Made by a program: the position numbers and the translations under genes. The notes beneath the pieces were generated by a model. The model saw only the letters and a program-made list of their open reading frames with translations, did no database searches and had not been told where the DNA came from. This document shows positions 6,056-32,154 of a stretch of DNA of 49,707 nucleotides, piece after piece. Every line of letters begins with the position of its first letter. The first letter of the stretch is position 1. The DNA is from a virus: the IMG/VR virus record IMGVR_UViG_3300015024_000008, positions 1-49,707 of that record; one strand, written 5' to 3'.

Positions 6056-6468
6056 TTATGGGAGTCTCGAACTTTCATCAGTATCTTGCCTAATTGATTC
6101 TCACCCCGGCCACGGCATACTCCCCAGAATGTATCGTTCCAGGTATTACCTTCAATGATCTCCATATCTCCTGTTGCAAGCAGCAGGGAAAGTAGTTCAG
6201 TATCACGAAACTTCGCCTGCACCAAGTTAGTCATTACCTGAACTTTGATTGCGTCCCAATCGGCTCGCATAGTAACGCTCCTGCCCATACGTTTGGCTTG
6301 TGCCGGTGTTGCACACTCAGAGATAGCTTTGCGTTGCTCCGTGCTTGATGTCTTCGCCGCTTGATACATATGCTCGACTGTAGCATACGTTACGCCCTTA
6401 AACATCAAAGGGCTACTCCAGAAGTTAGAGAGGAAGCGATACTCTCCACTGAACTCTTCGATCTTCAT
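6052..6468 (-). CDS. NADAR/YbiA-family ADP-ribose-processing enzyme
   Basis: 138 aa, starting at 6468 (MKIEEFSGEYRFLSNF) with GGAG upstream; the longer frame lies inside the neighbouring gene. The N-terminal signature, residues about 5-40 (EFSGEYRFLSNFWSSP, then VTYATVEHMYQAAKT), is that of the NADAR superfamily. The Trp-Gly near residues 115-116 (FWGVCRG) and the full length fit a complete domain. Family members are N-glycosidases acting on riboflavin intermediates, and several remove ADP-ribose from guanine in nucleic acids. In a phage it may reverse DarT-like DNA ADP-ribosylation or serve NAD metabolism. Function here is inferred. Confidence 0.88.
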   Translation of the reverse strand: MKIEEFSGEYRFLSNFWSSPLMFKGVTYATVEHMYQAAKTSSTEQRKAISECATPAQAKRMGRSVTMRADWDAIKVQVMTNLVQAKFRDTELLSLLLATGDMEIIEGNTWNDTFWGVCRGRGENQLGKILMKVRDSHK

Positions 6469-6497
6469 TACATTCTTCTCCTTTGTACGAGTGGAGG

Positions 6498-6511
6498 CTG
6501 TCACATGACAG
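6498..6511. repeat. Dispersed 14-bp palindrome, copy 3 (CA centre)
   Basis: CTGTCACATGACAG, extended to GGAGG...CCTCC on both sides (6493-6516), which gives a strong RNA hairpin. Lies between the beta-like gene and the NADAR gene. Confidence 0.88.
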
Positions 6512-6526
6512 CCTCCATTGACCCGG

Positions 6527-9259
6527 CTAACCATTCCGAAGTGCGGCTTCCTTTTCCTCCCGCAGCCGCTCTTTGAGTCGTGCACCCTGAGAGATGGTCT
6601 TTGCCAGCATCTCCATGACTTCCATCTCGTCAGCAGACATTGTGATCTGTCCGCCGAACAGGTTAGTAGCCCAAGGAGACTGAGACATACCATCTTTCTT
6701 TGTGGTATACGCCAGGTCTTCGTTCTCTTTGAGGACGAAGGTGCGATGTAGTGCGGGAATACAAGATCCGCAGTTGTTACCGTCTTCGTCATAGAGAACA
6801 AAGGACACATACTGTGTCCAGAAGCCATCGAACAATCTCGTGATTATCGTTCCGCTTTTAGGGGAGACGACATCCTTGAGATCTTGGAGATGATCTTCTA
6901 TGTCCATGGCAGTCTGAGTGCCATCAAAGTGTGTATGACCCATTAGAGCGCCTTGACCGATGATAACGTCACCAGTGAGCTTCTTCTGTTCCATACTATC
7001 GATAGCCGCTACTACATGGACATAGACTCGTCGTCCACCCATGATGAAGTAGCGTGAGCCTGTATTGGGAACACCAACCGATTTGGTGCCACACCAACCA
7101 AGCTTACGACCTTTTGGACAAGGCAGAACGTCAGGTGAGACCAACGTTATCTCTTCGGTAGAGCCGTCAATCACATCTTTGCCTATGCCTTGATTCGCAC
7201 CGGGTACGAACTTGCCGACTGAGCCGGCATCCAATGTCCCTACCTGACGGTAGGTAATACTGACTTTCCAACCTGCTCTCTTCAGGTCTTCTGTTGTGGC
7301 ACTCCGCTTGCCGAGGAACTCCACTGCTTTCGCATTGGCAGTCTCACGGCTCATTGGGCCATATTTGGCATGCTTCGGTGTGTACCGAGTCGCATGGACA
7401 CCCTGTGGTGTCAAATTGATAGAGTCTGGGTTCTTGCCCAGTCCGTTGGTAGTCAGCCCTTCACTGCCTACATAAGCGATTATCAGATCTGTACACCGAT
7501 CCAGTATCTCTGGGAGTAGACCGTCCCAGATTGTCCTGATGGTGTGGTGCGGGTCGGTGAGCACCCAGGCTGTTGCATTGCCTGATGCCTCACGCTGGCC
7601 CCGCTCTCGATTGTATTGACCAGGCTGCGAAACGAGCTCGATCAATGTTTGGTTAGTATCACCATGTGCAACGGTGATATGTGCTGCGCTGCCACCCTTA
7701 GGCGATGCACCGACACAGAAGTTATGCTTGACACCAGGCCGAAGCGGGTCATCAAACGTTTTGCTATCAACTACGGCCATAAGCCGCTTTTTAACAATCA
7801 TTTGACACTGACTGTCTTTTGTCTCAAGCCCCTCCAGTGAAGCTTGCAGTGGTAACATGTCCACTGTGTCATAGGTGATACCATCATCGTGATGGTCTTC
7901 ACCGATTGGCCGGACATACTTCTGCAGCATGCCCGAGAGAGTCGTTCGGAACTCACGGGACATTTGCTTTGTCCAGGAATCCGAGAAGGAAAGACCACCC
8001 TGTGACATGTGCCACACAGCGGCGTAGAGAGTGTCAAGGAAGCTAATGACTTCGTGAGCCATAAAGTCCATGACGGTGACAAGCCGCAGATCACTAGGCA
8101 AGATTGCCTTGTCTGCAGACGCCTCATCCGTGACAAGCATTCCTGCTTTGCGGTTGAGGCAGATTATGCCGTTACGTGCAAAGCTCTTAGCTTCGCCGCT
8201 TTGGAAGAGATAGAAGCCACCAACCTCATGGTCAGCGGTGTCGCGCTCTTGGAGGTCAGGCATTACCGCACGGAGTCTGACTCCATTGACTTTGCCGTAG
8301 CCGTTGATATGAATCGTCGGCAGAGATTCGTGCAGATAGACAACTTCGATGCTGTACTTATCTACTTTGACCAATATATCGTGAACCTTGTCTCCCGTCT
8401 TGGTTACGTTCGCGATTGCAATCGCGTTCTCAGTGTATTTGGCTGTGTTGTCGTACCATTTCTGCATGCCATAGCCACGAGGCATGCTACGAGGCTTTCG
8501 ATCCTTGGTAACGAACGGCGCCACTGGCACCGCTTTCTCTATCTTACGTGAGTGAATAATGTCCATGACGCTAATCATAGACGAGTCGTTGATACTGTGG
8601 CAAAGTGCCACAGTCTTTGTCGAATTGAGCTTACCAATCAGCGCATTGTTGATCGGATAAGCTGCAAGCGAGCGGTTGAGACTCTCTCCGCAGAGAGTCT
8701 GTATCAGTGCGTTGAACACTTCTACGTTGACGGTCGTTTCGCCCTTGTGTATTCTGTTCCCTTCTCCATCGACGAACGCTTTGGGATCGAGTAGTGGTAC
8801 TCGTCCAGCAATCAAGTCTGCGAGGTTCTGCAGAGCCGCTTCGTAGCGATCTGGATCCCCTGCACTGTACTTACGGAGATCCATAAGCACTTCCGTCATA
8901 CAAGCTTCTCCAGCTTCTGCGAAGAACTGGTGAATATAAACCGAGATCTGCTCGGTTGTGTAGAAGAGCAGATCCTCTTTTGTGAGACGAACTGCTACTA
9001 GCAGTTCGTCACGATGCGGTGCTAGCACATCGTAGAGTTTGAGTAATGCGAGCTTTGCAGCCCGGTGGAAGAACAGAGTCACGGGACCCTGCATGTCCTT
9101 GATCAGCCCTTCCGCTACCTTTAGCGAAAGACCGAACTTCTTAGCCACCGCTCTGATGCTCTTGTCGGTCAGCCACTCTTTCGGCGGCTTGACTTCCATC
9201 GTCAGCGGTGCGAAGCGAACCGGGAATGCTACCCGGCTCACTTTCTCCAGCTTATCCAT
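6527..9259 (-). CDS. Diverged multisubunit RNA polymerase beta-like subunit
   Basis: 910 aa. Start at 9259 (MDKLEKVSRV) with AAAGGA upstream and an 8-nt overlap with the preceding gene. The C-terminal 230 residues carry, in the same order as cellular RpoB: GKFVPGANQGIGK (682-694), like the beta-barrel GDK...RHGNKG with its two catalytic lysines; VGVPNTGSR (728-736), like LGVPSRMN; LFDG (809-812), like the YDGRTGE region; FGGQ (868-871) and DEMEV (877-881), like FGGQRFGEMEV. The gap from the second lysine to GVP (about 35 residues) and from DG to FGGQ (about 57) are close to those of RpoB. The N-terminal 650 residues are not recognisable to me. It is shorter than bacterial beta (about 1,150-1,340 aa). 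Predicted role: phage transcription with the adjacent beta-prime-like protein. Confidence 0.7.
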   Translation of the reverse strand: MDKLEKVSRVAFPVRFAPLTMEVKPPKEWLTDKSIRAVAKKFGLSLKVAEGLIKDMQGPVTLFFHRAAKLALLKLYDVLAPHRDELLVAVRLTKEDLLFYTTEQISVYIHQFFAEAGEACMTEVLMDLRKYSAGDPDRYEAALQNLADLIAGRVPLLDPKAFVDGEGNRIHKGETTVNVEVFNALIQTLCGESLNRSLAAYPINNALIGKLNSTKTVALCHSINDSSMISVMDIIHSRKIEKAVPVAPFVTKDRKPRSMPRGYGMQKWYDNTAKYTENAIAIANVTKTGDKVHDILVKVDKYSIEVVYLHESLPTIHINGYGKVNGVRLRAVMPDLQERDTADHEVGGFYLFQSGEAKSFARNGIICLNRKAGMLVTDEASADKAILPSDLRLVTVMDFMAHEVISFLDTLYAAVWHMSQGGLSFSDSWTKQMSREFRTTLSGMLQKYVRPIGEDHHDDGITYDTVDMLPLQASLEGLETKDSQCQMIVKKRLMAVVDSKTFDDPLRPGVKHNFCVGASPKGGSAAHITVAHGDTNQTLIELVSQPGQYNRERGQREASGNATAWVLTDPHHTIRTIWDGLLPEILDRCTDLIIAYVGSEGLTTNGLGKNPDSINLTPQGVHATRYTPKHAKYGPMSRETANAKAVEFLGKRSATTEDLKRAGWKVSITYRQVGTLDAGSVGKFVPGANQGIGKDVIDGSTEEITLVSPDVLPCPKGRKLGWCGTKSVGVPNTGSRYFIMGGRRVYVHVVAAIDSMEQKKLTGDVIIGQGALMGHTHFDGTQTAMDIEDHLQDLKDVVSPKSGTIITRLFDGFWTQYVSFVLYDEDGNNCGSCIPALHRTFVLKENEDLAYTTKKDGMSQSPWATNLFGGQITMSADEMEVMEMLAKTISQGARLKERLREEKEAALRNG

Positions 9260-12699: not shown

Positions 12700-13584
12700 A
12701 TGAATAAAATCGTTGTCATTTATCACCGCTCAGACTATGATGGGATATTCTGCCGGGAGATTGCCAAGAAGCATTTTGGGATCTCAGCATTCTATATAGG
12801 ATGGAGCTACGGAGATCGTCTTCCGCAAGTAGCAGACACAGATTCACTTTACATTCTCGATCTCTCTATAGAAGGACTAATGGATCATCCTAACCTTATC
12901 TGGATTGATCATCATAAGACCGCTATTGAGAAGTATGGAAAGAAGCCTGGGATCCAGATAGACGGAGTTGCTGCTTGCCGGCTTGCGTGGCAGTACTGGT
13001 TCCATGATGAAAGAGAGAATGACTGTGTTGAAGGCGACACAGCACCTTACCTCGTAAAGTCCAACTACATTGAACGCCTTCTAAGAGAGCCTACGTCTGT
13101 ACGGCTTGCAGGAGAGTACGATGTCTGGGATAAGCGGGATAAGAACACTGATACTTTCCAGCTAGGACTAAAAGCTCAAAAGCTTTCAGAAGCAAACTGG
13201 AACAATCTTTTAAGCTACACGCAGCAAGGTCAATTTCTTCGGTTAGACATTATCCAAAAAGGAAAAGCAATCCGTGAGTACAAGATGATTCACGATGCAG
13301 AAGCTATTGAGAAATACGGATTCGAGCATTACTGGCAAGGCATCAACTTTCTCTGCCTAAATACTGCACTCTGCAATAGTGACTCTTTTGCTGCAGGGGT
13401 AAAAGACCACCACGATGCGCTCTTTGCTTACCGTTTTGATGGGACAAAGTACATTGTTTCTTTGTACGGTCTTGACCATAAACCAGATATCGATCTTTCG
13501 GTAATTGCGCTTAAATATGGAGGTGGAGGACACAAACATGCCTGTGGATTTGTATCCCTAATCTCTCCTTTTCTACTCCCATAA
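12700..13584 (+). CDS. DHH-DHHA1 family phosphoesterase
   Basis: 294 aa. Visible motifs in order: YHRSDYDGIF (8-17), equivalent to motif I with metal-binding His/Asp; YILDLS (51-56), motif II; WIDHHKT (68-74), the DHH triad; and C-terminal GGGGHKHACGF (274-284), the DHHA1 substrate-binding glycine loop. The family includes nanoRNases, pApA phosphatases, cyclic-di-AMP phosphodiesterases and RecJ. The short length fits the NrnA/NrnB type rather than RecJ. Possible roles are recycling short RNAs or degrading a cyclic or oligonucleotide signal; the exact substrate cannot be read from the sequence. Confidence 0.85.
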   Translation: MNKIVVIYHRSDYDGIFCREIAKKHFGISAFYIGWSYGDRLPQVADTDSLYILDLSIEGLMDHPNLIWIDHHKTAIEKYGKKPGIQIDGVAACRLAWQYWFHDERENDCVEGDTAPYLVKSNYIERLLREPTSVRLAGEYDVWDKRDKNTDTFQLGLKAQKLSEANWNNLLSYTQQGQFLRLDIIQKGKAIREYKMIHDAEAIEKYGFEHYWQGINFLCLNTALCNSDSFAAGVKDHHDALFAYRFDGTKYIVSLYGLDHKPDIDLSVIALKYGGGGHKHACGFVSLISPFLLP

Positions 13585-13837: not shown

Positions 13838-14566
13838 ATGTCCGAGGAGATTCAAGATCGTCCTACCCTTACAGGGCACGACGATATTACTTATGAAGAG
13901 ATTCGATCTCAAGGAATGGAAATCCGTATTGAAGGTGATAGCAACTCCTTCAAGATGGGTGATCTGGCTGTTGCAGCCATCGACCTTGCCGAACGTGCTA
14001 CTAATCGTGTCAAATGGGCGCGTCAGGAAAATGAGCCTGCAGACCCATTGGACGAAGCCCTAAAAGAAGAAGGTAAGAACATCCTTAAAAAGCTGGCAAA
14101 CGATGTCGGCTGGACAAGTGACACGTTGGTAACAGGAGCACGTATCTGCCGCCGTTTCCCGGCGACTCACCGACTCCGTACCCATACGCCTCTTTCCTAT
14201 CATCATGCACGTGCTTTAGTGTTAGTCAAAGATGAAGCAGAAGTTGAGAGATTGATTGACGAAACAATCAATGAGCATCTTTCCGTTCATCGTCTGTTTG
14301 ACCTGGTAGGACGCTCCAAGGACAGTGCTTCTGTAGAAGCAGGACTCTTGAACTGCTTTAACTGTGGAGACCGTATCCGTGAGCAGGAAAACATGGTACG
14401 CGTTCAGCAGTCGCGTAACAAGTACCTTTTCTGTGGATGGGCCTGTACAGAAGCCTTTGCCATTGGAAAAGCTTCTGAAGACATTGGTAGCATGGGTGAA
14501 CTGAGTGATCTCGAAGATACACTCCATGTTCCAGAAGAAATTGACCGAGAACTTGTCGCCGCTTAG
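13838..14566 (+). CDS. ParB/HTH-like protein with C-terminal Cys4 zinc finger
   Basis: 242 aa. Residues about 85-160 read as paired helices: LANDVGWTSDTLVTGARICRRFP, then LSYHHARALVLVKDEAEVERL and INEHLSVHRLFDLVG. This order resembles the DNA-binding region of ParB/KorB-type proteins, where a 'lsyshaRallpl' helix is followed by 'lsvreL'. A zinc site follows: CFNCGDR, then LFCGWACTEAF. AGGAG lies about 13 nt upstream. It could be a partition-like or transcription regulator. Whether it binds the dispersed palindromes is an open question. Confidence 0.55.
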   Translation: MSEEIQDRPTLTGHDDITYEEIRSQGMEIRIEGDSNSFKMGDLAVAAIDLAERATNRVKWARQENEPADPLDEALKEEGKNILKKLANDVGWTSDTLVTGARICRRFPATHRLRTHTPLSYHHARALVLVKDEAEVERLIDETINEHLSVHRLFDLVGRSKDSASVEAGLLNCFNCGDRIREQENMVRVQQSRNKYLFCGWACTEAFAIGKASEDIGSMGELSDLEDTLHVPEEIDRELVAA

Positions 14567-15201: not shown

Positions 15202-15368
15202 ACATTAGTAATGCAAAATCCCCTGAGATTATGGAAATTGAGAAAGTTTCCCTTAATGGTCCTCTTCGACTTCGCCTTCAAATGAAGGATGGAAGTCAGC
15301 GCACTGAAGATGCCTGCGTTATTATCACAAAACTCTTAAAGTTAGTACAGGAGCTAAAACAATCATGA
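15192..15368 (+). CDS. Hypothetical small protein (58 aa)
   Basis: The ATG at 15192 is preceded by AAGGAGAG at ideal spacing. The start overlaps the end of the previous gene, and the stop overlaps the next start as ATGA. The peptide (MPIDISNAKSPEIMEIEKVS...) has strands followed by a helix (CVIITKLLKLVQELKQS). Function unknown. Confidence 0.7.
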   Translation: MPIDISNAKSPEIMEIEKVSLNGPLRLRLQMKDGSQRTEDACVIITKLLKLVQELKQS

Positions 15369-16471
15369 GGCGACACGACCCGAGAGAAGATGATAATGAA
15401 TTAAGTGATCTTGAAAACTTAACAAGTGGCGATGAAAACGCTGCAGGAAGTTTAGAGAATACCCATGAAACCACGCCGCGCACGTCGATCCAAACACGCA
15501 CGTCAACGTCTGCAGCGGATCTCGCGCTCCTCTACCAAGAACCGGCCCCTGCATCGATAAGAGTTCGACGTGCCGGCTCCTCTAAGGATCAACCCGAATC
15601 TCCTCCTGGTGTAGAAGAATGGGACTTCCACAAACTTCTTGCCTCTTTCCAAGTTAACTGGCGCGCAGTAACGCCTTATTTCTCCTTGGGGCGCATTGGC
15701 CGACGCGCTTTGCTCATTAACTGGAGTATAGAAGACTTAAAGAGCATTGAAGCTGCTTCTAGGATTTATAATGATGTTGCACGTCGATGTCCTGGCAATC
15801 CTCCCCGTGATGCCAATAACAACATCTTGCCTGGAGCATTGATTTGTCCCTGTGAGTCCCGATATGGGGCAGATCCCGAAGTGTGGAAAGGTCTTCCCTG
15901 TCCTGCAGAGAACCTCCAAGCATTTCGTCACTTTACACAGCTTGTTCGAGATCTTGAGGTCCGTCCCGAGAATCATGTAGACGTTATGCAGGTAGTAGAG
16001 ATCGTAAAGCTTATGATCTACGAATCTCGCTGCGATCTTGATATTCAAGATGAAGGAAGAATGTATGATCTCCAAGTAGGTCAGCTTAATCAGCAGCAAA
16101 ACGTTGCGTACTACAACAAAGTAACTCCTGTGGCGATTATAACGCAGACACAGCTAGCCGCACGCCGCCAAAAGATCTACAAAGATCTTGTGGCTACAAA
16201 AGAGTCTCGGTCTGAAGCAAGACTTAAAGAACTAAAGATCACTGCTACCCTTGGAAATGCTTCCAGCAAGAACACGCTCGTAAACTTGATGACTCGTTTG
16301 AATGCACGTAACATTGAGAATCGACGTTCTATTCAGATAGAAGATTCCGGGTCTGTAAGCAGAGCAGAAGAAGATGATATTGATGAAGGCGAAGAAGAAG
16401 AGACGCCGACAATCATTCTAGAGCTACCACGTCAGCAGAGATCAATAGAATTGACCGATAACTTAGATTAG
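15365..16471 (+). CDS. Hypothetical protein upstream of packaging genes (368 aa)
   Basis: It starts as ATGA on the 58-aa gene. Residues 1-80 are low-complexity, acidic and Thr/Ser-rich. A central domain follows (about 85-290) with two cysteine pairs (CPCESRYG, LPCPAENLQAF) and a long helical region (EIVKLMIYESRCDLDIQ). The C-terminus is acidic. Its position ahead of the terminase large subunit would allow a packaging or virion role, but no motif supports a terminase small subunit. Confidence 0.7.
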   Translation: MRRHDPREDDNELSDLENLTSGDENAAGSLENTHETTPRTSIQTRTSTSAADLALLYQEPAPASIRVRRAGSSKDQPESPPGVEEWDFHKLLASFQVNWRAVTPYFSLGRIGRRALLINWSIEDLKSIEAASRIYNDVARRCPGNPPRDANNNILPGALICPCESRYGADPEVWKGLPCPAENLQAFRHFTQLVRDLEVRPENHVDVMQVVEIVKLMIYESRCDLDIQDEGRMYDLQVGQLNQQQNVAYYNKVTPVAIITQTQLAARRQKIYKDLVATKESRSEARLKELKITATLGNASSKNTLVNLMTRLNARNIENRRSIQIEDSGSVSRAEEDDIDEGEEEETPTIILELPRQQRSIELTDNLD

Positions 16472-16487
16472 AACCAAGGAGAACTTT

Positions 16488-16646
16488 ATGGCAAATACAC
16501 ACACACCCACAATTAAGCCTTCACCTAGAAAGCCTAATGCAGACCTCTTTAAGATTTCAATTCCAAGTGGAAGCAAAGGCTTTGCTCCTGCCCCCTCCAC
16601 TGCGACCAAGTTCTCTAAACCTATGCCTAAAACAGGCTCAAAGTAA
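16488..16646 (+). CDS. Small basic Pro/Ser/Lys-rich protein 1 (52 aa)
   Basis: ATG 16488 has AAGGAGA 8 nt upstream. MANTHTPTIKPSPRKPN..., net positive, no hydrophobic core, ending in GSK. It is the first of three consecutive small basic ORFs, with a fourth at 20017. Such disordered basic peptides might bind DNA or be packaged; this is inferred from composition. Confidence 0.6.
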   Translation: MANTHTPTIKPSPRKPNADLFKISIPSGSKGFAPAPSTATKFSKPMPKTGSK

Positions 16647-16655
16647 GGAGTCAAC

Positions 16656-16796
16656 ATGCAACCCTGGGTACGTCAAAAACCTCCCACGATTAGTAAACCG
16701 AAGGCAAAACTGCCTTCGGTAAGCAATGGATCGCCTACTCCTGTCAAACTCCCCAAAAGCGTTAATTCCTCCAACGTCTCTCGATCTCGCAAATAG
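16656..16796 (+). CDS. Small basic Pro/Ser/Lys-rich protein 2 (46 aa)
   Basis: ATG 16656 with TAAGGAG 6-8 nt upstream. MQPWVRQKPPTISKPKAKLP..., C-terminus SRSRK. Same composition and length class as its neighbours, predicted disordered. The coding region contains a short GC hairpin. Confidence 0.6.
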   Translation: MQPWVRQKPPTISKPKAKLPSVSNGSPTPVKLPKSVNSSNVSRSRK

Positions 16797-16808
16797 AAGG
16801 TATATCCC

Positions 16809-16961
16809 ATGACACTCATTATGACAAATGAAGCTGCAAAACCAAAAGTAACTCCAAAAGATACTAAAGGCAAAGCTGTTCCTCCCACCAAAGCCAGCGC
16901 TAAAGGCAAAATCGGAGGTGCTAAAGTGCTACCTCCGTGGTTGACTAAAGCAAAGAAATAG
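16809..16961 (+). CDS. Small basic Lys/Ala/Pro-rich protein 3 (50 aa)
   Basis: ATG 16809 with AGAAGG 8-10 nt upstream. MTLIMTNEAAKPKVTPKDTK..., Lys-rich to the end (LTKAKK). It precedes a palindrome copy and the GAF gene. Function unknown; histone-tail-like composition. Confidence 0.6.
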   Translation: MTLIMTNEAAKPKVTPKDTKGKAVPPTKASAKGKIGGAKVLPPWLTKAKK

Positions 16962-16999
16962 CCTGCATAAGTAAGGGGGTGGCGGAAGTTACCCCTTGA

Positions 17000-17013
17000 C
17001 TGTCACATGACAG
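17000..17013. repeat. Dispersed 14-bp palindrome, copy 4 (CA centre)
   Basis: CTGTCACATGACAG lies 15 nt before the start codon of the GAF gene, so a protein bound here or a hairpin in the RNA could affect its translation or transcription. Confidence 0.85.
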
Positions 17014-17028: not shown

Positions 17029-17661
17029 ATGTCAAGCTTACTAGATGAGATTGCAGAACAAGGCGAACGTATCGCACGTGCAGAAGAAGCAACGAAAGAT
17101 ACGTTAAAACGATTAGAAGAGACAAATCTTTTACTTCTAGAAGAAGTAAAAGATCGCCGTCTTGCCGAAAACCGGTTGCGTATTCTCTGCGATACAATGT
17201 CAGACTACAATACAAGTATTACTGATCGCATTACCAAAATGCTAAAAGCTGCCTGTGAGAACTTTGGGTTAGATGCGGGAATTCTTGCAAAAATCGAAGG
17301 CGATAGATACACAATCATTCAAAGCTGGACGGCTGAAGAGTTTCCCCAAAAACTACCTGGTACCGTTTATCATATTAATGAAACGTACTGTAGGTCATTA
17401 GATAAAGAAGGAACTTCTATTGGAATTGGCAACATTGGAAAAAGTGACTGGAAAACTAATCCTATGTATATTGCCAGCCATATCGAAACTTATCTTGGAG
17501 TCTGTGTAAAGATCCGTGAGAAGTTTTGGGGCGCACTCTGCTTTGTAGACCTAGACATACGAGAAAAGCCTTTTATTAAGCCAGATCATGATTTTATTCG
17601 GCTTATGTCGCAATGGATAGGTGCACAAATGACGCTAGAGCAGCAGAAACTAGAATTATGA
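17029..17661 (+). CDS. GAF-domain sensor protein
   Basis: 210 aa. The N-terminal motif SLLDEIAEQGERIARAEEAT is followed by a coiled-coil (to about residue 50) and one GAF domain (about 52-205). TYCRSLDKEGTSIGI, the DWKTNP loop, IETYLGVCVKI and WGALCFVDLDIREKPF are the GAF signature seen in stand-alone or N-terminal GAF domains of bacterial sensor kinases. No kinase, cyclase or HTH is attached. The stop overlaps the next start as ATGA, so it is made with the PAS/LOV protein and shares its N-terminal motif, which suggests that the two associate. GAF domains bind small ligands or cofactors; no bilin-attachment cysteine is obvious. Confidence 0.85.
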   Translation: MSSLLDEIAEQGERIARAEEATKDTLKRLEETNLLLLEEVKDRRLAENRLRILCDTMSDYNTSITDRITKMLKAACENFGLDAGILAKIEGDRYTIIQSWTAEEFPQKLPGTVYHINETYCRSLDKEGTSIGIGNIGKSDWKTNPMYIASHIETYLGVCVKIREKFWGALCFVDLDIREKPFIKPDHDFIRLMSQWIGAQMTLEQQKLEL

Positions 17662-19634
17662 GCATCAAACCTTCTCTCCTCGACGAAATCGATCAGCAAG
17701 GAAACCGGTTAGCTAAAGCTGAAGCAGATCTTTATGATCTTACTACCGCGCTTTCTTATGCCTTTGACGGTACCGCTAAAATGGACGAAAAGGGTAACTA
17801 TGTTTACGTCAATGATCTGTATGCTGCAAACTTTGGCTATACTACGGAAAACCTTCAAGGTCTTCCGTGGAACATTACCGTACTTGCAGAATATCGGGAG
17901 ACGATGGCAGAAGCTATTGAATTCTGCAAGATCCATGGACGCATTACTATTGAAGCCAAAGGACTACGTAAAGATGGAAGCGTATTCTGGAAAAGAGTTT
18001 CGCTAGTTCGAATACCTCCAGGGACAGATAAAGTCTATACAGGTTATTATGCTTTCGTCCGAGACATTACAGACTCAAAACAATGGGCAACCGAACTGCA
18101 AAAGTCTGAGCAAAGGTTTTCGACTCTTGTACGCTCAACAAGTAACATTGTCTGGGTACGAGATGTCCATGGCGACTTTAGTGAAAATCAACCTTCCTGG
18201 GAAGCTTTTACAGGACAGACACGTAAAGAGTATGAAGGTCTTGGTTGGATGGGGGCGGTTAGAGAAGACGATAAAATACGGGTTGCAGAATCTTGGTCTA
18301 CTGCACTAATGAACTCTTCTAACTGCGAGATGGAATACTCTTTACGCCGGCATGATGGTGTTTATCGAGATATGCACTCCCGATCTACTCCCGTACTCGA
18401 AAAAGATGGCTCTATCCGGGAGTGGATTGGTGCTTCAGAAGATGTTACTGAAGAGAACCTTACCCGGAAACGCTTCTATACACTGACAAATGCAATGGCC
18501 CAGATTGTCTGGACAACAAACTCTGATGGGATTGTTGATTACTACAATGATCGATGGTACGAGTACACAGGCATCGATCCCCAAGACAAGTTTCAGTGGG
18601 AAACCCGGTGTCACCCTGACGATTTGCCTATGATACTTGAGCATCAGGCAATGCACCGTGATCCTGTCACGATGTATCAATTTGAGTTTCGACTTCTTGG
18701 TGCAGATAAAAACTATCGATGGTTTCTTGCCCGGTGCGTTCCCATTCAGGATACAGATAAAGATACGCTTTACTGGATTGGTACTTCTACAGATATCAAT
18801 GAACAAAAACTTGATAAAGAGAGATATGAAATCTCTGAAATCCGTAAGAATGCAATCTTGGATGCCGCACTTGATCCTATTATCACCATCGAGGCAAACA
18901 GCACCATCATTGAGTGGAATAAAGCATCGGAAACCGTCTTTGGCTACACTCAAGAAGAGGCGATGGGTAAAATCCTTTCCGATCTAATTATCCCTAAAAA
19001 CTACCACAATAAGTACAACTTTGGTATAGATAAGTACCTAGAAACAGGGGAAAGCGCCCTGATCTATAACACCTTTGAAATCCCTGCAATTCGTAAAGAT
19101 AAACAGCTACTAAATGTAGAGATCTCTATTATTCCGATTAACACTAGAGGAACTCAACTCTTTACTGCCTATATTCGGGATATCACAGATAAGAAGAACA
19201 ATGCCAAGATACTCAACTTACGTGAGAAGACATTGGCGGCTGCGGCTAACGGAATTGTTATTACAGACTGCACACTTCCCGACGAACCAATAATCTACTG
19301 TAATCCTGCCTTTGAAAAGATAACCGGATACGGTAAAAGCGATATTATAGGAAGAAACTGTCGCTTTCTTCAGGGACCAGATACCGATAAGAGTTCTGTC
19401 AAGAAGATCCAAGACGCAGTCAAGAGCCGTAAGTCTTGCCGTGTAAGTCTTCTCAATTATCGTAAGGACGGAACAACCTTCTGGAATGACCTTACGATCT
19501 CTCCTGTATTAGATGATAATGGTGACTGTACAAACTATATTGGCGTTCAGTACGAAACGGACACCAACAATTCGCCTATAATCCCTCATATTTCTCATGA
19601 TACGATCGAAAGCATTACCCATGAGTCTTCCTGA
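17658..19634 (+). CDS. Five-PAS protein with C-terminal LOV photosensor domain
   Basis: 658 aa, starting at 17658 by ATGA overlap. It has the N-terminal motif SLLDEIDQQGNRLAKAEA (6-23), then PAS domains at about 30-140, 150-268, 273-384, 393-513 and 523-636. The fifth is a LOV domain: GRNCRFLQG (565-573) with photoreactive Cys568, then Asn600 (LLNYRKDG), Asn610 (FWND) and Gln631 (GVQ), which contact flavin in known LOV proteins. The Cys-Asn-Asn spacing (32 and 10 residues) equals that of Bacillus YtvA. The second and third PAS domains are of the PAS_3 type. No histidine kinase, GGDEF, STAS or HTH output follows. A virus-borne blue-light or flavin-redox sensor is the best reading; partner and output are unknown. 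Confidence 0.9.
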   Translation: MSIKPSLLDEIDQQGNRLAKAEADLYDLTTALSYAFDGTAKMDEKGNYVYVNDLYAANFGYTTENLQGLPWNITVLAEYRETMAEAIEFCKIHGRITIEAKGLRKDGSVFWKRVSLVRIPPGTDKVYTGYYAFVRDITDSKQWATELQKSEQRFSTLVRSTSNIVWVRDVHGDFSENQPSWEAFTGQTRKEYEGLGWMGAVREDDKIRVAESWSTALMNSSNCEMEYSLRRHDGVYRDMHSRSTPVLEKDGSIREWIGASEDVTEENLTRKRFYTLTNAMAQIVWTTNSDGIVDYYNDRWYEYTGIDPQDKFQWETRCHPDDLPMILEHQAMHRDPVTMYQFEFRLLGADKNYRWFLARCVPIQDTDKDTLYWIGTSTDINEQKLDKERYEISEIRKNAILDAALDPIITIEANSTIIEWNKASETVFGYTQEEAMGKILSDLIIPKNYHNKYNFGIDKYLETGESALIYNTFEIPAIRKDKQLLNVEISIIPINTRGTQLFTAYIRDITDKKNNAKILNLREKTLAAAANGIVITDCTLPDEPIIYCNPAFEKITGYGKSDIIGRNCRFLQGPDTDKSSVKKIQDAVKSRKSCRVSLLNYRKDGTTFWNDLTISPVLDDNGDCTNYIGVQYETDTNNSPIIPHISHDTIESITHESS

Positions 19635-19980
19635 AAGCACACAACACTCTGGGGACGCCTCCAAGTATCACGATCTCATTATGCAGCAACTCCGGTTGAC
19701 TGATGAGACAAGTACACGTTTGGAAACCAAATTAGAGTCACTGGCTAATGAGGTTCGCACAGGAAATCAACAGATTAGTACTGCTCACATTGCAGCAGTG
19801 AACACAATTACAGAACGCCTCAATAACTACAATTTGGCTACAGAAACACGTCTTTCTACCATCGAAACACAGTTCAAGAACTTAGATGGTTCGAAGGTAG
19901 ACAATAAATGGTGGATATCCATTATATTCTCATTTATCGCTGTGAGTGGTATGGTAACTGGCCTACTACTCAAACACTAA
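19621..19980 (+). CDS. Coiled-coil protein with C-terminal membrane anchor (XhlA/holin-like topology)
   Basis: 119 aa. Start at 19621 overlaps the end of the PAS/LOV gene. Residues about 12-88 are a long heptad-rich coiled-coil (LRLTDETSTRLETKLESL..., RLSTIETQFKNL), then residues about 93-117 are one transmembrane helix (WWISIIFSFIAVSGMVTGLLL) ending KH. This topology is that of XhlA-type lysis proteins and of other phage membrane-anchored coiled-coils. Coupling to the PAS/LOV gene suggests a partner or output role; neither is shown. Confidence 0.7.
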   Translation: MSLPESTQHSGDASKYHDLIMQQLRLTDETSTRLETKLESLANEVRTGNQQISTAHIAAVNTITERLNNYNLATETRLSTIETQFKNLDGSKVDNKWWISIIFSFIAVSGMVTGLLLKH

Positions 19981-20016: not shown

Positions 20017-20196
20017 ATGGGAACAACTACTAAGGGATCTATCCCTACGCACAACAACAAGATGCCGCTTCCGAGCAATGTCAAAGATACCGTTCATAAG
20101 AACGGCAGTCCTGGTGGGACTCTTGGGGCGCTTAAAGGCAAACTGAAAGTCAACTATAATGTCGGTAATGTAAGTCAAGCCAAAAAGAAAGGCTAA
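20017..20196 (+). CDS. Small basic protein 4 (59 aa)
   Basis: ATG 20017 with AAAGGAAA upstream. MGTTTKGSIPTHNNKMPLPS..., Gly/Lys/Asn-rich and ending QAKKKG. Like the three small basic ORFs at 16488-16961 it lacks a hydrophobic core. It lies just after the sensor cassette. Function unknown. Confidence 0.6.
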   Translation: MGTTTKGSIPTHNNKMPLPSNVKDTVHKNGSPGGTLGALKGKLKVNYNVGNVSQAKKKG

Positions 20197-21432: not shown

Positions 21433-23322
21433 ATGCCTAATCCTAGTTCTGCATCAAGTACGATTCTTAATAGTACTCCTGAAGTCTCCTCAGATATTAC
21501 TCCCGAAGAACAAGAACAAGTTGAAGCCAGTCTTGCTACACCTCTTGCTTGGGCTCAAACGTACATCAATAACCCCAAAAGCCATAAACCCTTTGAACCT
21601 AATATCGTTCAGATCCAGGCATTAAACTCTTTCCACCGTTATAACGTCATCCGTGTGCATCGGCGCTGCGGAAAGACAGTCTCCCTTGTTATCCTCGCTT
21701 TGTATTTCCTAACGACTATGGAAAACTGCGAAGTAACCTATGTTGCCCCACGTAACAACCAAGTCCAAGCTTTTTGGGACGAAATGGAACGTTACATTGA
21801 AGAACATGAATTCATCCGTGAGTCTGTGACTGGAGGACGGCAAAAGCCGTTCTCTAAGAACTTTGCTAATGGCTCTGTTATCAAGGGATTTACGACAGGA
21901 GCAGCATCAAACAACAAAGGAGACTCTATTCGAGGTCAAGGAGGCGATGTTGTACTTCTGGACGAAGTCGGCATGATGGCTGACGATGACTTTACTGCGC
22001 TGACTCCTATTATTGAAGGCGACGAATATCGACGCTTTCCACCTATCGTCTTTGCGGCTTCTACCCCTGCCGGCGCCTTCGGGCAGTTCTTTGAATGGTG
22101 TATGGATAAGACTCTTGGGTGGCACGAGATCTTTGTTCCTATCACAGAGAATCCTAAGTATAGTGATGCTCGTCGCCTTCGTATTCGTAAGCAATGTTCA
22201 CTCTATACCTGGGAACAAGAATATCTATGTATGTTCAAGGATGCAGGTGCGGGTGTCTTCCCTGTTTCGCTTGTAATACGGGCTAAACGCGGTATTCCTT
22301 CTCCAAGTCTCTTTCCTATGCCAGAGTATGCAATAGGATCTATTACACAGAAGCGATATCCCGCAATAGAGGTCGCCGGTCAGCCTCCTGTGCGCCGTGT
22401 ATGGCGCACAATGGGCGTAGACTGGGATAAGTACAATGCAGACGGCTCTGGACCCAATATCGCCATTGTAGAAGTCGATGAACGGCCTGCTCAGGGCAAC
22501 GTACCAGGCGGAACAGGAATCCCAGAAGTTATCTACCGTGAGAGTATCCCGCAAGGGCCTTTTGTCTATAACGAAACAATCAAACGTATCAAAGAACTCA
22601 ATGAGATGATGACTCCAGACGTGATTGCCTGTGATGCCGGCGCAGGAGAGTCTCAGATCGAAGAACTTAAACTTTGGGGCAAGAATCACCCAACCACTCG
22701 ACTTGATAAGATTGTAAAACGAGTTCACTTTGGAGGAGATGTAGAGATTGCAGATCCTGCGACAGGAGAACTTGTTAAAAAGCAGTTCAAGGGTTTTATG
22801 ATCAATGTCCTTGGTAAATGGTTCGAAGACGATATGCTTATCTATAATAAAGATGATGCCGTCTTTGAGAAACAACTTAAAGGATTCAAAGAAGTCAGTC
22901 GGACAATGCACGGAGTACGTTACTCCAAGACAAATGAGCATATCATTGATGCAGTAGGTCTTGCCTGTTCTGCTATGTTTATGCTGCATAAGAACCCTTT
23001 CCAGCGCAGAGTTCCTATGACAAGCTACTTGATGCCCTCTCCAGAGGTCATTGCAGGTGGTTCTATGACTAAAGAGCAGCGAGATCAGTTCTCTCAGAAA
23101 GACCCTGTAGGAGGCGCTCTCGTCAATACACACTTAGATAAAGACTTTGCGGAAGATACTCGAGTAAAGGTCGATGAGACTTTACACGTTCTTGTTGATA
23201 CTCCTGGAGACAGATCTTCCGTAGGAAGTGACAATCCTTTTGCTCGAAAGATGGGAAGTTCTCTCGGATCTCGCATTGGTTCTCGAAACGCTAATGCTCC
23301 ACGCGGACGGACAAGATTCTAA
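21433..23322 (+). CDS. terL: Terminase large subunit (ATPase-nuclease)
   Basis: 629 aa. Walker A variant HRRCGKT (76-82), Walker B VVLLDE (173-178) and coupling motif STPAG (210-214) form the packaging ATPase. The nuclease half has MGVDWDK (Asp330), IACDAG (Asp401) and HIIDAVG (Asp506) as the RNase H-fold acidic residues. It pumps DNA into proheads at the portal and cuts concatemers. The C-terminus beyond about 540 is a low-complexity tail. The start has only a weak ribosome site, and the stop overlaps the next start as TAATG. Confidence 0.95.
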   Translation: MPNPSSASSTILNSTPEVSSDITPEEQEQVEASLATPLAWAQTYINNPKSHKPFEPNIVQIQALNSFHRYNVIRVHRRCGKTVSLVILALYFLTTMENCEVTYVAPRNNQVQAFWDEMERYIEEHEFIRESVTGGRQKPFSKNFANGSVIKGFTTGAASNNKGDSIRGQGGDVVLLDEVGMMADDDFTALTPIIEGDEYRRFPPIVFAASTPAGAFGQFFEWCMDKTLGWHEIFVPITENPKYSDARRLRIRKQCSLYTWEQEYLCMFKDAGAGVFPVSLVIRAKRGIPSPSLFPMPEYAIGSITQKRYPAIEVAGQPPVRRVWRTMGVDWDKYNADGSGPNIAIVEVDERPAQGNVPGGTGIPEVIYRESIPQGPFVYNETIKRIKELNEMMTPDVIACDAGAGESQIEELKLWGKNHPTTRLDKIVKRVHFGGDVEIADPATGELVKKQFKGFMINVLGKWFEDDMLIYNKDDAVFEKQLKGFKEVSRTMHGVRYSKTNEHIIDAVGLACSAMFMLHKNPFQRRVPMTSYLMPSPEVIAGGSMTKEQRDQFSQKDPVGGALVNTHLDKDFAEDTRVKVDETLHVLVDTPGDRSSVGSDNPFARKMGSSLGSRIGSRNANAPRGRTRF

Positions 23323-25160: not shown

Positions 25161-26987
25161 GTGACACTTATAAACAGAAATCTAGAAACACCTATTGGCC
25201 GTTTACGCATTGCTAACGAAAATACTGGCCTATTAACGACACGTAAAGATGCCTTCTTAACTCGTCTTGCGCCTCATTGGAACCAGAACATTGTCCACAA
25301 TGAATCAGGCTCCTATAATGCTAAAGAGCTTCCGGAAATCAAGAATCCATTGCTTCCTGGAACATACCCAAAGCAGCGTCAATGGATGTTTCCTAAAGAT
25401 GAGAACAACACTCTTAAGCGTATCCAAAAAGCACATGAAGCAGAAAGTCTTCTCTCTCAGGCTACAGACAAATATACAGACCTAATCAATAAGGAAAGTT
25501 TCAGTCTCCGGTGTATAGAAACTGAGCCTAGAGAGTATATCCAAGCCCGATTTTACTACATCAGTGCTACAACCGGAATCCCTATTGAATCTCTGTTCAA
25601 AGAGACTTCCAGAGATCTTGTACAATACGGAAACAGTTTCCTGATCAAAGGACGCATCTCAAAAGAGACAGGTAATGTCAGAATCGCAGGAAGAGATATT
25701 GTCTCCGCAACAATCATTCACGGAATAAAGAATGCCCAGCCTATTGGCGGCTATTTCCGAGCAGATCCTCTTAACTTTCATCCTGTGTACAATCCCGATA
25801 CCGGCCGGCTGGAAGCTTGGCAGCAGAAAGTTCTCGGTAAAGATCCTAAAAGCTTTAATCTAGAACAAGTCATTCATTTCGCATATAAGCCTCCTGCAGG
25901 ACAAGTCATGGGAGTTCCGCTTTCCGCTCCTGTCCTTGATGACCTGATGAACTTACGTGACGTTGAAGATTACGCTACTAAGCTTATCTTTAAGCACCTA
26001 TTTCCTCTTCTCCACCATGAAGTTCCTGATCATACAGGTACAGGATTAGGTACAGACGAAGATGTAAAACAAGCAGTTGCAAACTATGCAGGAATGGCTC
26101 CTGATGGAATGCTAATCACTCCTCCTGGTCATAAGATTAGCGTTGTAGAAGCAGGACAAGGTATTGACCCCGCTCCTTACATTAAACATCTTATGCAGAG
26201 AGTCTTGATGGGTCTTGGCCTCTCAGAAGCAATTATGGGGTTAGGCAGCGCCGCTGCAGGAATGAGTGACATGCTTACGGCGCAGATGCATGACCGCGTT
26301 AAAAGTTTTCAGCAAGATATGGAACGAATGATCAACCTTAAAATCATTCTTGAGCTTCTGATGGAAGGCGGATTCGATCCTATTCGTAGGAAAGAAGAAC
26401 GTGTTGAACTTGAGTTTGATGAGATCGAAATCGAAGATGTAATACGCCGCGAGAATCATATGGGAAATATGTTCGGTATAGGTGGTGTTACAGAAGACGA
26501 GTTTCGGCACTCACTCCGTCGTAATCCTCTTACAACTTCTGATCGGAAGAACAAGCAGATTTACACAGATAAGATTCCGGTACTTGTTGCCCAGATTAAG
26601 GCACAAACTAACTCACAGATTGAGACTATTGAAGCTCAAGGAAAGGTTGCTGCAGATGCCGCCACTAAAGCCGCTGCCAACAGTAAAGACCTCGCCACGC
26701 ATCAAGGTAAGATCGCCAAAGACTCAGAAACACACAAATCCGCTATTACTTCCACAGTCAGACCAAAGACCGTTCCTACAGCGTCTCTGCGCGTCCCTAA
26801 ACTTGCATCCAAGGCAACAAGCAAAGGCTTAAACCCTGTAAAGACCGCTTCTGGAGGCTCTACTCATGGAACAGTAGCTTCTAAAGATAACCCGAGCAAT
26901 CAGCATGGGCAAAGAGGTGCACCGAGAGTATCAAACTCTCCGGCCGCTGGAATAGCATCCAAGAAGACACCACAATCTGCTAAATAG
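25161..26987 (+). CDS. Portal protein
   Basis: 608 aa, GTG start with AGAGGA upstream. Portal-like features: a long mixed N-terminal region, FYYISATTGIPIESLFKETS, a strand-rich stem (LNFHPVYNPDTGRLEAW), the HFAYKPPAGQVMGVPLSAPVLDDL segment typical of portal clip/stem, and GLGLSEAIMGLGSAAAGMSD followed by a long helix. The last 110 residues are Ala/Lys/Ser-rich and disordered. Its position between terminase and protease supports the call. It forms the dodecameric DNA gate. Confidence 0.88.
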   Translation: MTLINRNLETPIGRLRIANENTGLLTTRKDAFLTRLAPHWNQNIVHNESGSYNAKELPEIKNPLLPGTYPKQRQWMFPKDENNTLKRIQKAHEAESLLSQATDKYTDLINKESFSLRCIETEPREYIQARFYYISATTGIPIESLFKETSRDLVQYGNSFLIKGRISKETGNVRIAGRDIVSATIIHGIKNAQPIGGYFRADPLNFHPVYNPDTGRLEAWQQKVLGKDPKSFNLEQVIHFAYKPPAGQVMGVPLSAPVLDDLMNLRDVEDYATKLIFKHLFPLLHHEVPDHTGTGLGTDEDVKQAVANYAGMAPDGMLITPPGHKISVVEAGQGIDPAPYIKHLMQRVLMGLGLSEAIMGLGSAAAGMSDMLTAQMHDRVKSFQQDMERMINLKIILELLMEGGFDPIRRKEERVELEFDEIEIEDVIRRENHMGNMFGIGGVTEDEFRHSLRRNPLTTSDRKNKQIYTDKIPVLVAQIKAQTNSQIETIEAQGKVAADAATKAAANSKDLATHQGKIAKDSETHKSAITSTVRPKTVPTASLRVPKLASKATSKGLNPVKTASGGSTHGTVASKDNPSNQHGQRGAPRVSNSPAAGIASKKTPQSAK

Positions 26988-27102: not shown

Positions 27103-28524
27103 ATGAGCTTTGATCTGTCAGAATATCAACATATCAACCTTGGAGCTAATGCTTCTGTAGGTCCAGCGTTAGATCGCAGCTTGGCGATCTCTCGCTTTAA
27201 TGAGGCTGCAAGGAAGGGTGCGCCTGTTTCTGTTTCAGAAATGCCTGCTGTCATCTATCCACAGATCCATGTTCTGTCTGCAGATAAAGCTACTCGAAAC
27301 AAAACTCGTTACCCAACACAGGCCCATAAGGGTAGCCGCAAAGAACGTACCGGGCAACACTCCTTCACTAAACCCTACCCAATTCCCATGATTCGTGATC
27401 ATCAAGCTGCTCCAGGCGAATGCGGAGGTGAAGCTTCTCCTGTCTATGGGCGCTTTATTGACGCAAAGCTCGTGAAGAATGTGGAAAGTGGTCAAGGCCA
27501 TGTTGCAGGACTAACAGAAGTCCCGCATCCAGAAGCAATCTTCGAGATTATGAGTGGGCTATGGCTTACAGGCTCTCTTGGCAGCAGCGTTCATCTTGCT
27601 CAGTGTTCTATCTGTTCCGAAGCGTTTAACTCTCCAGGGGCTATGTCAGATCATGAACATCGACGCGGCGGTCACTACCGGCCAAAGAAAGCTTCTGAGA
27701 TTAGAGCTCAATCCGTTTCAAGAGAGTCCGAAGTTGATGCAGTTATAGAATACATTCAATGTGACTCTAAAGAGCGGGGTGCAGTCGAATGCTTGACAGA
27801 CGTAATGAGCTATTCTGCACGGGAGTATTCCCGCGTAGTCGTTCCTTCTGATGATGAGAGCATTATTGATGTTGTTGACACTTCGAGCGCGTCCAGCCAC
27901 TTCACAACAGCACCTACTGCAGAAGCTTCTGAGCTTCCTGCTTCTGCTCTATGGGTTCCAATGAGTCGATCTTCCCGTGCAAACATTGGTGCCTGGGGAG
28001 AGCGTTACATTGACCTTGTTAGTGGACAAGAGAAAGCGGCAAGTGATCTTGGACTAATGTTTGGACATCAACTTCACGAACACTTTGAACGGTTGATTTC
28101 AGACGAAGACTCAGACATTGCTTTTGAAACAGTAAGTATCTCCCGACAGGCTCATGTTCCTTATACCTTCTCCGGACTAACTGTGGAATCTTCGGAAGAC
28201 TGTCACATGACAGATGCCTCGCAGACTGAAGAAGATCTGACCTCTGAAGGGATTGTCGCAACAATCCCAGCAGAAACTCCGAGTGAAGTTCCTACTACTT
28301 CTACCGAAACTATTCCTACAGAGATCACTACATTAGCCACCCCTACACAAGAAAAGCAGAGCGTTGGTAATTTCTGCGGTCCAAATAACACTTTCCTTGT
28401 CAATGATAAAGCTCACTACTCTGCGGCTCTGAAAATGGTCGGTCGATACAAAGGGCCAGGAAATAAAGCCAAGATACGTTCTCGCATCCTCTTCCACGGC
28501 AAAGCTAATGGCTGGGATAAATAA
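27103..28524 (+). CDS. Prohead protease-like protein
   Basis: 473 aa. N-terminal half: YPTQAHKGSRKERTGQHSF, TKPYPIPMIRDHQ (His near 98), YGRFIDAKLVK, EAIFEIMSG, then TGSLGSSVHLAQCSICSEAF with DHEHRRGGHY. The pattern of a conserved His in '(K)PvL.nH', 'GR', a Ser-rich 'tvSvG' strand and a CxxC...H...H zinc knuckle is that of prohead proteases of SPO1-like and related phages. The middle is low complexity and the C-terminus (NFCGPNNTFLVNDKAHYSAA..., RILFHGKANGWDK) is a common phage head-protein tail. It probably cleaves head proteins during maturation, and may also act as scaffold. Confidence 0.6.
   Translation: MSFDLSEYQHINLGANASVGPALDRSLAISRFNEAARKGAPVSVSEMPAVIYPQIHVLSADKATRNKTRYPTQAHKGSRKERTGQHSFTKPYPIPMIRDHQAAPGECGGEASPVYGRFIDAKLVKNVESGQGHVAGLTEVPHPEAIFEIMSGLWLTGSLGSSVHLAQCSICSEAFNSPGAMSDHEHRRGGHYRPKKASEIRAQSVSRESEVDAVIEYIQCDSKERGAVECLTDVMSYSAREYSRVVVPSDDESIIDVVDTSSASSHFTTAPTAEASELPASALWVPMSRSSRANIGAWGERYIDLVSGQEKAASDLGLMFGHQLHEHFERLISDEDSDIAFETVSISRQAHVPYTFSGLTVESSEDCHMTDASQTEEDLTSEGIVATIPAETPSEVPTTSTETIPTEITTLATPTQEKQSVGNFCGPNNTFLVNDKAHYSAALKMVGRYKGPGNKAKIRSRILFHGKANGWDK
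28200..28213. repeat. Dispersed 14-bp palindrome, copy 6 (CA centre, inside a gene)
   Basis: CTGTCACATGACAG, the only copy inside a clear coding region; it encodes part of E-D-C-H-M-T-D in the protease-like gene. Confidence 0.85.
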
Positions 28525-30882: not shown

Positions 30883-32154
30883 ATGAAACTTAATCTGTCA
30901 GAGTTAATTAAAAAGTCCCGCGAAGATTACGATCGCAGACTTATTCGAGATTCTTCAGCCGGTACAATGAACCAGACTGAACTCGATACTTTCGTCAATG
31001 ACACAGACGAAGTCAGCGGTATCTTAACGGCGCTTATGACTACGCATACTGGACGTGTTCCTCAGCGCAAAGGTGTCACAAACGCCGAAGGCAAAAAGTT
31101 CCTAGAGAACTGGGAGCGCGGCGAAGATAAAACTCCGCTGTCGTTCGTAGAAGCTCTTCACTCCAATGATGCTTCCGCAATGTTCAAGCACGTTATTAGC
31201 GATATCCTTGTCGCTCCTATCGAGACTGAATATATTGGACAGACAATCCTCTCCCGCACCATCCGTTTGGATGGCGCACGCAGCGCTATGTTCCCCGCAA
31301 TGGGAGCGATTGTTGCCGGAGACTTGTCTGAGACCGGAGAGTACCCAGAACAGCAGCCCAGCTTCACGGAGCACATGCTGGAACTGAAAGTTCAGAAAGC
31401 TGGACTAATGCTTGCCGTTTCCGAAGAAGTCATCGAAGATTCCATGTGGGATGTCTTTGGCCTCTACGTAACGATGGCTTCCAATGCCTGTGACCGCTGG
31501 AAAGAAGAGAAGATCTTCAAGGAAGCTCTCTCGAAAGCAAACACCGTATTTGACAATACGATTGTTGGTGATCACGAGGCCCTGACCAACGGACGTGACA
31601 AAGATGGTCAGCTAAACGGTTCGGTATCCTTTACCGACCTGATGGACGTGTTCGGTGGAGTTATGACCAACGGTTATGAAATCACCGATCTTCTGATGCA
31701 CCCGCTCTGTTTCATCATGCTGGCAAAAGATCCTCGCCTGCTCTTCCATCTACTGACAACTGGTGCTTATGGTCAGTCAGTTCCGATCCCAGCGCTGGAT
31801 GCAAACTCAATTCAGAAGAACCTGCCGTTTGGCTCTGTCAACGTTGTTGTAACGCCTCAGATGCCTTTCGACTACAAGCGTGTCATTGCTATCAATGGCG
31901 TGCAGCAGGATCCCTGTAACATCGGGAGCATCATCGCTCTTGATCGCAAGTCCAGCCTCATCGTTCTGCAGCGTGACGACAAGCACATGGAAGAGTTCAA
32001 AGCACAGACCCGCGACATTCACTACCTCAAAGTAGCAGAGCGTTATGCAGTCGGCGCACTCGACATGGGACGTTCCATTGCGGCCATCCGTAATATCCGT
32101 CTTGTACAGAATCACGAGAGTGTATTCAATGTCGGTATGGGCGTTGTTTCGTAA
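30883..32154 (+). CDS. Major capsid protein (HK97 fold)
   Basis: 423 aa. The features match HK97-type capsids: a helical N-arm (residues 1-90), MFKHVISDILVAPIE, an E-loop region with SETGEYPEQQPSF, LKVQKAGLMLAVSEEVIEDSMWDVFGLYV (spine and axial helices), the 'DRWKEEKIF' helix, then P-domain strands and a C-terminal segment GAIDMGRS-like (GALDMGRSIAAIRNIRLV). It is probably the most abundant virion protein. A strong terminator follows, and a promoter-like inverted repeat precedes it. Confidence 0.88.
   Translation: MKLNLSELIKKSREDYDRRLIRDSSAGTMNQTELDTFVNDTDEVSGILTALMTTHTGRVPQRKGVTNAEGKKFLENWERGEDKTPLSFVEALHSNDASAMFKHVISDILVAPIETEYIGQTILSRTIRLDGARSAMFPAMGAIVAGDLSETGEYPEQQPSFTEHMLELKVQKAGLMLAVSEEVIEDSMWDVFGLYVTMASNACDRWKEEKIFKEALSKANTVFDNTIVGDHEALTNGRDKDGQLNGSVSFTDLMDVFGGVMTNGYEITDLLMHPLCFIMLAKDPRLLFHLLTTGAYGQSVPIPALDANSIQKNLPFGSVNVVVTPQMPFDYKRVIAINGVQQDPCNIGSIIALDRKSSLIVLQRDDKHMEEFKAQTRDIHYLKVAERYAVGALDMGRSIAAIRNIRLVQNHESVFNVGMGVVS

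Follow-up and report, generated by a model that had tools for sequence, protein, structure and literature searches.

A predicted LOV photosensor cassette with a coiled-coil membrane protein in a contractile-tailed phage, and recurring sensor and membrane protein pairs beside phage endolysins

To our knowledge, no virus with a LOV photoreceptor is known, nor do we know of any sensor partner for XhlA, the small coiled-coil lysis protein. LOV proteins that are short and stand alone, Vivid among them, lack a catalytic output and signal by contact. Signalling is still possible for LOV proteins in which the cysteine or the glutamine is missing (PMC4682037, PMC9098866). Lysis by PBSX needs XhlA (PMC6834076, citing Krogh et al. 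1998; PMC5589764), and in lysis inhibition by the T4 RI antiholin an environmental cue sets lysis timing via control of the holin (PMC11413866, PMC6832632). Infection by cyanophages depends on light (PMC7112961, PMC7238727).

The stretch of DNA analysed here (the window) is the linear 49,707-bp IMG/VR virus record IMGVR_UViG_3300015024_000008. Its positions 17029-19980 are occupied by a cassette of three overlapping genes that encode, respectively, a GAF protein, a protein of four PAS domains plus LOV, and a small protein (CC-TM) with a coiled coil and one C-terminal membrane helix (Table 1). An earlier sequence-only reading had proposed such coupled genes for a GAF protein, a five-PAS protein ending in LOV and a coiled-coil membrane protein; all three ORFs were found present and overlapping, with Pfam PAS_9 matching five stretches of the second. 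Gene 2 starts in an ATGA overlap with gene 1, and CC-TM most likely starts at 19621, overlapping gene 2 by 14 nt. Among 50,697 named phage records no convincing LOV photoreceptor was detected, and none from a virus was found in the open-access literature. Taken singly, LOV, GAF and coiled-coil lysis proteins belong to known kinds, and it is their combination that we rate as new. LOV domains in the unannotated ‘Listeria phage' records OR847435, OR848423, OR847031 and OR848284 (3-9 kb) were set aside as probably Listeria chromosome carrying its own LOV protein.

Table 1. Positions of the cassette, its domains and flanking elements, and of the phage marker genes in the window.
Feature	Position	Strand	Basis or remark
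Intergenic hairpin AAGGGG..CCCCTT, then palindrome CTGTCACATGACAG (17000-17013), just 5′ of cassette	16970-17013	+	RNA fold z = -2.9
Gene 1, GAF protein, 210 aa, N-terminal coil + GAF domain	17029-17661	+	ORF, homology
N-terminal segment SLLDEIAEQGERIARAE of gene 1	17035-17085	+	near-copy of gene 2 segment
Gene 2, PAS x4 + LOV, 658 aa, no output domain	17658-19634	+	ORF, Pfam
N-terminal segment SLLDEIDQQGNRLAKAE of gene 2	17673-17723	+	
PAS 1	17772-18074	+	PAS_9 38.6 bits
PAS 2	18192-18452	+	PAS_9 23.5 bits, under cut-off of 27
PAS 3	18504-18803	+	PAS_9 37.3 bits
PAS 4	18873-19190	+	PAS_9 46.6 bits
LOV domain	19251-19550	+	PAS_9 82.4 bits, top of five stretches, C-terminal
LOV residue codon Cys568	19359-19361	+	
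LOV residue codon Asn600	19455-19457	+	
LOV residue codon Asn610	19485-19487	+	
LOV residue codon Gln631	19548-19550	+	
Gene 3, CC-TM, 119 aa, coiled coil + one C-terminal membrane helix	19621-19980	+	
CC-TM membrane helix	about 19915-19971	+	
Palindrome CTGTCACCTGACAG, immediately after gene 3 stop codon	19981-19994	+	
TerL	21433-23322		
Portal	25161-26987		
Major head protein	30883-32154		
Tail sheath	42608-44356		

With a PAS_9 cut-off of 27 bits, the whole PAS-LOV protein scored 206.7 bits. The residues Cys568, Asn600, Asn610 and Gln631 are all present in the LOV domain at a spacing of 32/10/21, confirming the complete LOV domain with Cys-Asn-Asn spacing of 32 and 10 that had been read from the letters, and Cys568 lies in GRNCRFLQ, which corresponds to the adduct motif GxNCRFLQ. 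The best sequence matches of the LOV region in PDB were the LOV domains of a Meiothermus kinase, phototropin and aureochrome (E 1e-35 to 1e-32); the AlphaFold model of the domain has a core pLDDT of >90, and Foldseek comparison of this model with PDB returned aureochrome, phototropin and Meiothermus LOV structures (E about 4e-14). A flavin-binding LOV domain is thus strongly supported by sequence and fold (PAS_9, PDB matches, AlphaFold and Foldseek), and the C-terminal domain of gene 2, as judged from sequence and model, is near certain to be a LOV photoreceptor domain.

The LOV domain is 55-66% identical to that of LOV-PAS-GAF histidine kinases from filamentous cyanobacteria. These relatives continue into a kinase, whereas the PAS-LOV protein ends ~27 residues past the LOV core; in line with the proposal that no such output is attached, Pfam found no kinase (HisKA, HATPase_c), GGDEF, cyclase or HTH domain in the cassette. 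In a LOV tree, the window LOV falls among cyanobacterial LOVs without a firm position. Among the viral contigs searched, none encoded a close relative of the full PAS-LOV protein.

For gene 1, the Pfam GAF score of 19.9 bits is below the cut-off of 22.4, yet its product resembles, at E 4e-24, the GAF-bearing stretch of a cyanobacterial multi-sensor kinase, which Pfam calls GAF_2 above its cut-off, so that the assignment as a GAF protein holds. The 17-residue N-terminal segments of the GAF and PAS-LOV proteins are identical at 12 of 17 positions, which was equalled in 0 of 5000 shuffles; from this likeness, they probably represent a duplicated docking or oligomerisation element.

The window covers part of the genome of a large phage with a contractile tail; among named phages, Moorella MTATph1, Bacillus KLEB27-3 and Acinetobacter ME3 come closest (26-33% protein identity). 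The codon usage of the PAS-LOV gene correlates with that of the phage genes at r 0.87, against 0.72-0.93 for long phage genes compared with one another and 0.50-0.71 for four cyanobacterial kinases. As it fits the phage genes better than these four kinases, the gene is taken to be phage DNA. Moreover, the palindrome CTGTCA-NN-TGACAG occurs in ten exact copies in the window (0.003 expected), at 2546, 4678, 6498, 17000, 19981, 28200, 32200, 34694, 44379 and 48259, and its presence on both flanks of the cassette makes a spliced host fragment unlikely. The assembly of host sequence into this locus, a concern of the sequence-only reading, is therefore improbable. The spacer NN is CA/TG and in one copy CC; most copies stand just 3′ of stop codons on either coding strand, with one inside ORF 27103-28524, and two lie within a larger palindrome whose arms are GGAGG/CCTCC. 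The palindrome resembles an operator- or stoperator-like element, which the ParB-like HTH protein encoded at 13838-14566 could bind. Consensus promoters and terminators were no more numerous than in shuffles.

A cyanobacterial host for this phage is an idea that comes from the LOV and GAF ancestry only. Search for CRISPR spacers in 245 genomes of the order gave weak 24-44-nt matches, with none in a CRISPR-like array, and a TerL search of 386 cyanobacterial genomes gave a single distant match. HIP1 sites, a cyanobacterial mark, number zero in the window for 0.36 expected, a count that carries no information on the host.

Two relatives (L010 and L026) harbour homologues of the flanking gene at 15365-16471 and of the gene at 20202 and/or TerL in the same order, with no PAS/GAF cassette between them; since the flanking genes are kept without it, the cassette occupies a variable slot. 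Small Lys/Pro-rich basic ORFs form a run before TerL in the window (16488-16646, 16656-16796, 16809-16961 and 20017-20196), and similar ones are located near TerL in L010 (5880-6074) and L026 (5233-5397 and 7638-7901). The TerL of L025/L026 (7938-10463) is split by an insertion of about 290 aa that starts with CFLPGTSV and ends with VHNC and that, from these sequence features, looks like an intein. Elsewhere in the window are genes for a NADAR domain protein (6052-6828, minus strand; 99 bits) and a DHH phosphoesterase (12700-13584; phrog_4771). Directly 3′ of the major head gene, 32437-33087 matches phrog_1128 (enoyl-CoA hydratase/carnitine racemase-like; E 5e-9), for which a ClpP-fold head protease would be an alternative reading. 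The 804-aa protein at 35124-37538, whose N-terminal stretch matches carbohydrate-binding module family 6 (PDB 2yb7, E 3e-23), probably serves, on this match, as an adhesin on the tail or surface. The window yielded no recognisable endolysin or holin, and a search for the M15 motif was negative; the 804-aa protein and a 941-aa protein were rejected as endolysins, their PDB matches showing a carbohydrate-binding module only.

The complete three-gene cassette, for which a search of other large phages had been suggested, was found in no other phage; pairs of a sensor and a CC-TM, however, did recur. A LOV-profile scan of viral contigs (such scans use short patterns and miss relatives) detected, in addition to LOV kinases and LOV-GGDEF proteins of bacterial type, two more kinds that carry no output domain, one in L144/L145 and the other in L155 and L156. 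The LOV-histidine kinase proteins (L006, L007, L149-L154 and L157) and LOV-GGDEF proteins (L146-L148) are of bacterial type on viral or proviral contigs, and were rejected as counterparts. In six contigs (L155, L156, L164, L165, L166 and L171), a PAS or PAS-LOV gene and a CC-TM gene stand directly after holin-like and endolysin genes, with a spanin-like gene upstream; ‘holin-like' (two-helix) and ‘spanin-like' (lipoprotein) are labels by topology and position, with no family match. For example, L156 (78 kb, with terminase) has the order spanin-like, holin-like, Phage_lysozyme, PAS-LOV and CC-TM, and L155 has spanin-like, holin-like, M15 endolysin (phrog_17001, E 5e-70), PAS-LOV and CC-TM. In both, a coil-PAS-LOV protein precedes a CC-TM of 134-135 aa, while the other four contigs show the same gene order with PAS-type sensors, their cassette genes overlapping or lying at most 87 nt apart. 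The coil similarity between the window PAS-LOV and L155-type sensors was not above that of shuffles. A seventh contig, L175, which like L171 was found with the CC-TM alignment (L164, L165 and L166 were found with the PAS-LOV pair), has the same lysis cassette with CC-TM and without PAS. As this CC-TM stands without a sensor and the endolysin type varies among members while CC-TM is constant, CC-TM is the core part and the sensor an optional, exchangeable accessory.

In L144/L145, which are identical over the 16 kb compared and belong to a jumbo phage (212-kb contig with portal, head and sheath genes), LOV, coiled coil and C-terminal membrane helix are united in one 289-aa protein. The CC-TM part of this fusion in L145 matches phrog_689 ‘holin' at E 3e-5, and its match to XhlA (PF10779) is weak and below cut-off (E 0.046). 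Next to the fusion gene is a giant ORF of 2498-2649 aa (L145 8739-16235 and L168 8895-16844, both minus strand), which has no Pfam name and carries a GDYDGDM motif reminiscent of the RNA polymerase active site; several 34-84-bp near-identical repeats are located upstream of the fusion gene (L144/L145 1-8000).

LOV chemistry is complete in the window, L145 and L155, and partial in L156, which retains the Cys but has changes at the second Asn and the Gln; L171 has a Cys-to-Ala change, L164 and L165 have lost the chemistry and L166 has a single PAS. Since several lysis-cassette sensors are without the LOV cysteine, light is not the common input; with the chemistry kept in some members and lost in others, the PAS sensor is the shared feature and light one possible input. 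The LOVs of the window, L145 and L155/L156 formed one clade in none of the bootstrap trees, and the well-supported branches still allow one origin.

An HMM was built from the seven lysis CC-TMs (L155, L156, L164, L165, L166, L171 and L175) and used to search 2531 ORFs taken from the window and every other locus. The sole significant match (E 1e-7) was at 6423-6722 of L009, which is related to the window phage (39% for TerL and about 34% for the portal) and where the gene directly upstream encodes a PAS_4 protein (37 bits; cut-off 23.1). The same PAS_4 and CC-TM pair is carried by L194, and both pairs are located behind the portal gene. By this sequence match, the CC-TMs of these window-phage relatives are clearly homologous to those of the lysis cassettes; most relatives of the window phage have no such sensor. 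The window CC-TM itself scored E 0.29, which is not significant and ranked third behind an unrelated 66-aa ORF, and hhalign against the lysis CC-TM family gave p 0.017 over 16 columns only; SKYxxxxxQQL near the N-terminus is common to both.

The window CC-TM has a single hydrophobic stretch (residues 99-117, mean Kyte-Doolittle 2.27), C-terminal to a heptad-rich region. The XhlA-like topology once proposed for it therefore stands as regards the coiled coil and the single C-terminal membrane helix, but PF10779 gave no match at E up to 1, and no holin, endolysin or other lysis gene was recognised near the cassette, which precedes the terminase gene, outside a lysis block. The further proposal, that output goes through the membrane partner, gains independent support from the recurrence of the pairs and from the natural LOV-CC-TM fusion; the E value of 0.29 speaks against the lysis family as the place of the window CC-TM.

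The explanation we favour, to which we give about an even chance, is that a cytosolic, probably blue-light-driven sensor adjusts lysis timing through a lysis-type membrane protein. From its conserved residues and fold, the PAS-LOV protein would bind flavin and form a cysteinyl adduct under blue light. Its shape change, probably along with that of the GAF partner that has a common N-terminal coil, would reach the tail-anchored CC-TM via coiled-coil contacts; the gene overlap, the conserved pairing and the natural fusion all suggest such transmission, and coupling of the PAS-LOV sensor to CC-TM is likely. Because equivalent pairs in other phages stand in lysis cassettes, CC-TM may act as a lysis protein of the XhlA/holin type, with light or flavin redox state either advancing or delaying lysis; by this analogy, a lysis output for the window cassette is plausible, although unproven. 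More tentatively, these phages may share an as yet undescribed modular class of lysis controllers, in which exchangeable cytosolic PAS, GAF or LOV sensors gate a tail-anchored coiled-coil lysis protein and time it by light or cell redox; in the window, the input would be blue light and the phage would infect a filamentous cyanobacterium.

The closest relatives of the window LOV and GAF are parts of filamentous-cyanobacterial LOV-PAS-GAF kinases, and the place of the phage LOV in the tree, though not firm, is among cyanobacterial LOVs. Nearly all cyanobacterial LOV matches were in ORFs of at least 450 aa, with a kinase ATPase domain in all five relatives scanned. This would fit a decoy, in which the GAF and PAS-LOV proteins are kinase-less pieces of a cyanobacterial multi-sensor kinase that pair with host kinases and block or redirect their signals, CC-TM being a mere anchor. 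Such a role is unlikely, as the PAS-LOV proteins of the lysis cassettes have no kinase-like parts and adjoin endolysins, the LOV-CC-TM fusion points to output via the membrane anchor, and no CRISPR-array match ties the window phage to a host.

Sensing of flavin redox, oxygen or a small ligand by the module instead of light, with LOV as a redox reporter of host energy state, is rather unlikely for the window: there, as in L145 and L155, the full set of adduct-forming residues is kept, and a sensor of redox or ligand alone would have no need of it. It would agree with the sensors of L164, L165, L166 and L171, which keep their gene position without the photoactive cysteine or a LOV domain, and with signalling by cysteine-less LOV proteins through the flavin semiquinone (PMC4682037). 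The placement of the cassette among the structural genes, with small basic ORFs on one side and TerL on the other, and the retention of the flanking genes without it in L010 and L026 would suit packaged virion-associated proteins or a moron with no role in lysis. Such passenger genes are quite improbable given the intact photochemistry residues and the recurrence of the sensor and CC-TM pairing in unrelated phages.

A light receptor that the phage itself encodes and that is coupled to lysis would provide a direct mechanism for the light dependence of infection. Furthermore, the recurring pair beside endolysins makes environmental choice of lysis time a testable question, and it offers a natural part for light-controlled lysis.

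Among known systems, the LOV histidine kinases of filamentous cyanobacteria (Microcoleus, Okeania, Symploca and others) share the 55-66% identical LOV and PAS/GAF domains of the same type; the phage differs from them in its C-terminal LOV, the absence of a kinase, the separate GAF gene and the tail-anchored coiled-coil gene that follows. Vivid-type proteins (Vivid in PMC4682037) likewise have LOV without catalytic output, whereas the phage cassette adds four PAS domains and two partners, one a GAF protein and the other a membrane protein. The XhlA/PBSX cassette (xhlA-xhlB-xlyA) also features a small coiled-coil protein with one C-terminal membrane helix, and the CC-TM of the L155/L156 group is similarly placed beside holin-like and endolysin genes; the window CC-TM differs in having no sequence match to PF10779. 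With T4 RI, the likeness would be the setting of lysis timing by a cue, which is superinfection in T4 and would be read by a flavin/PAS sensor in the phage cassette.
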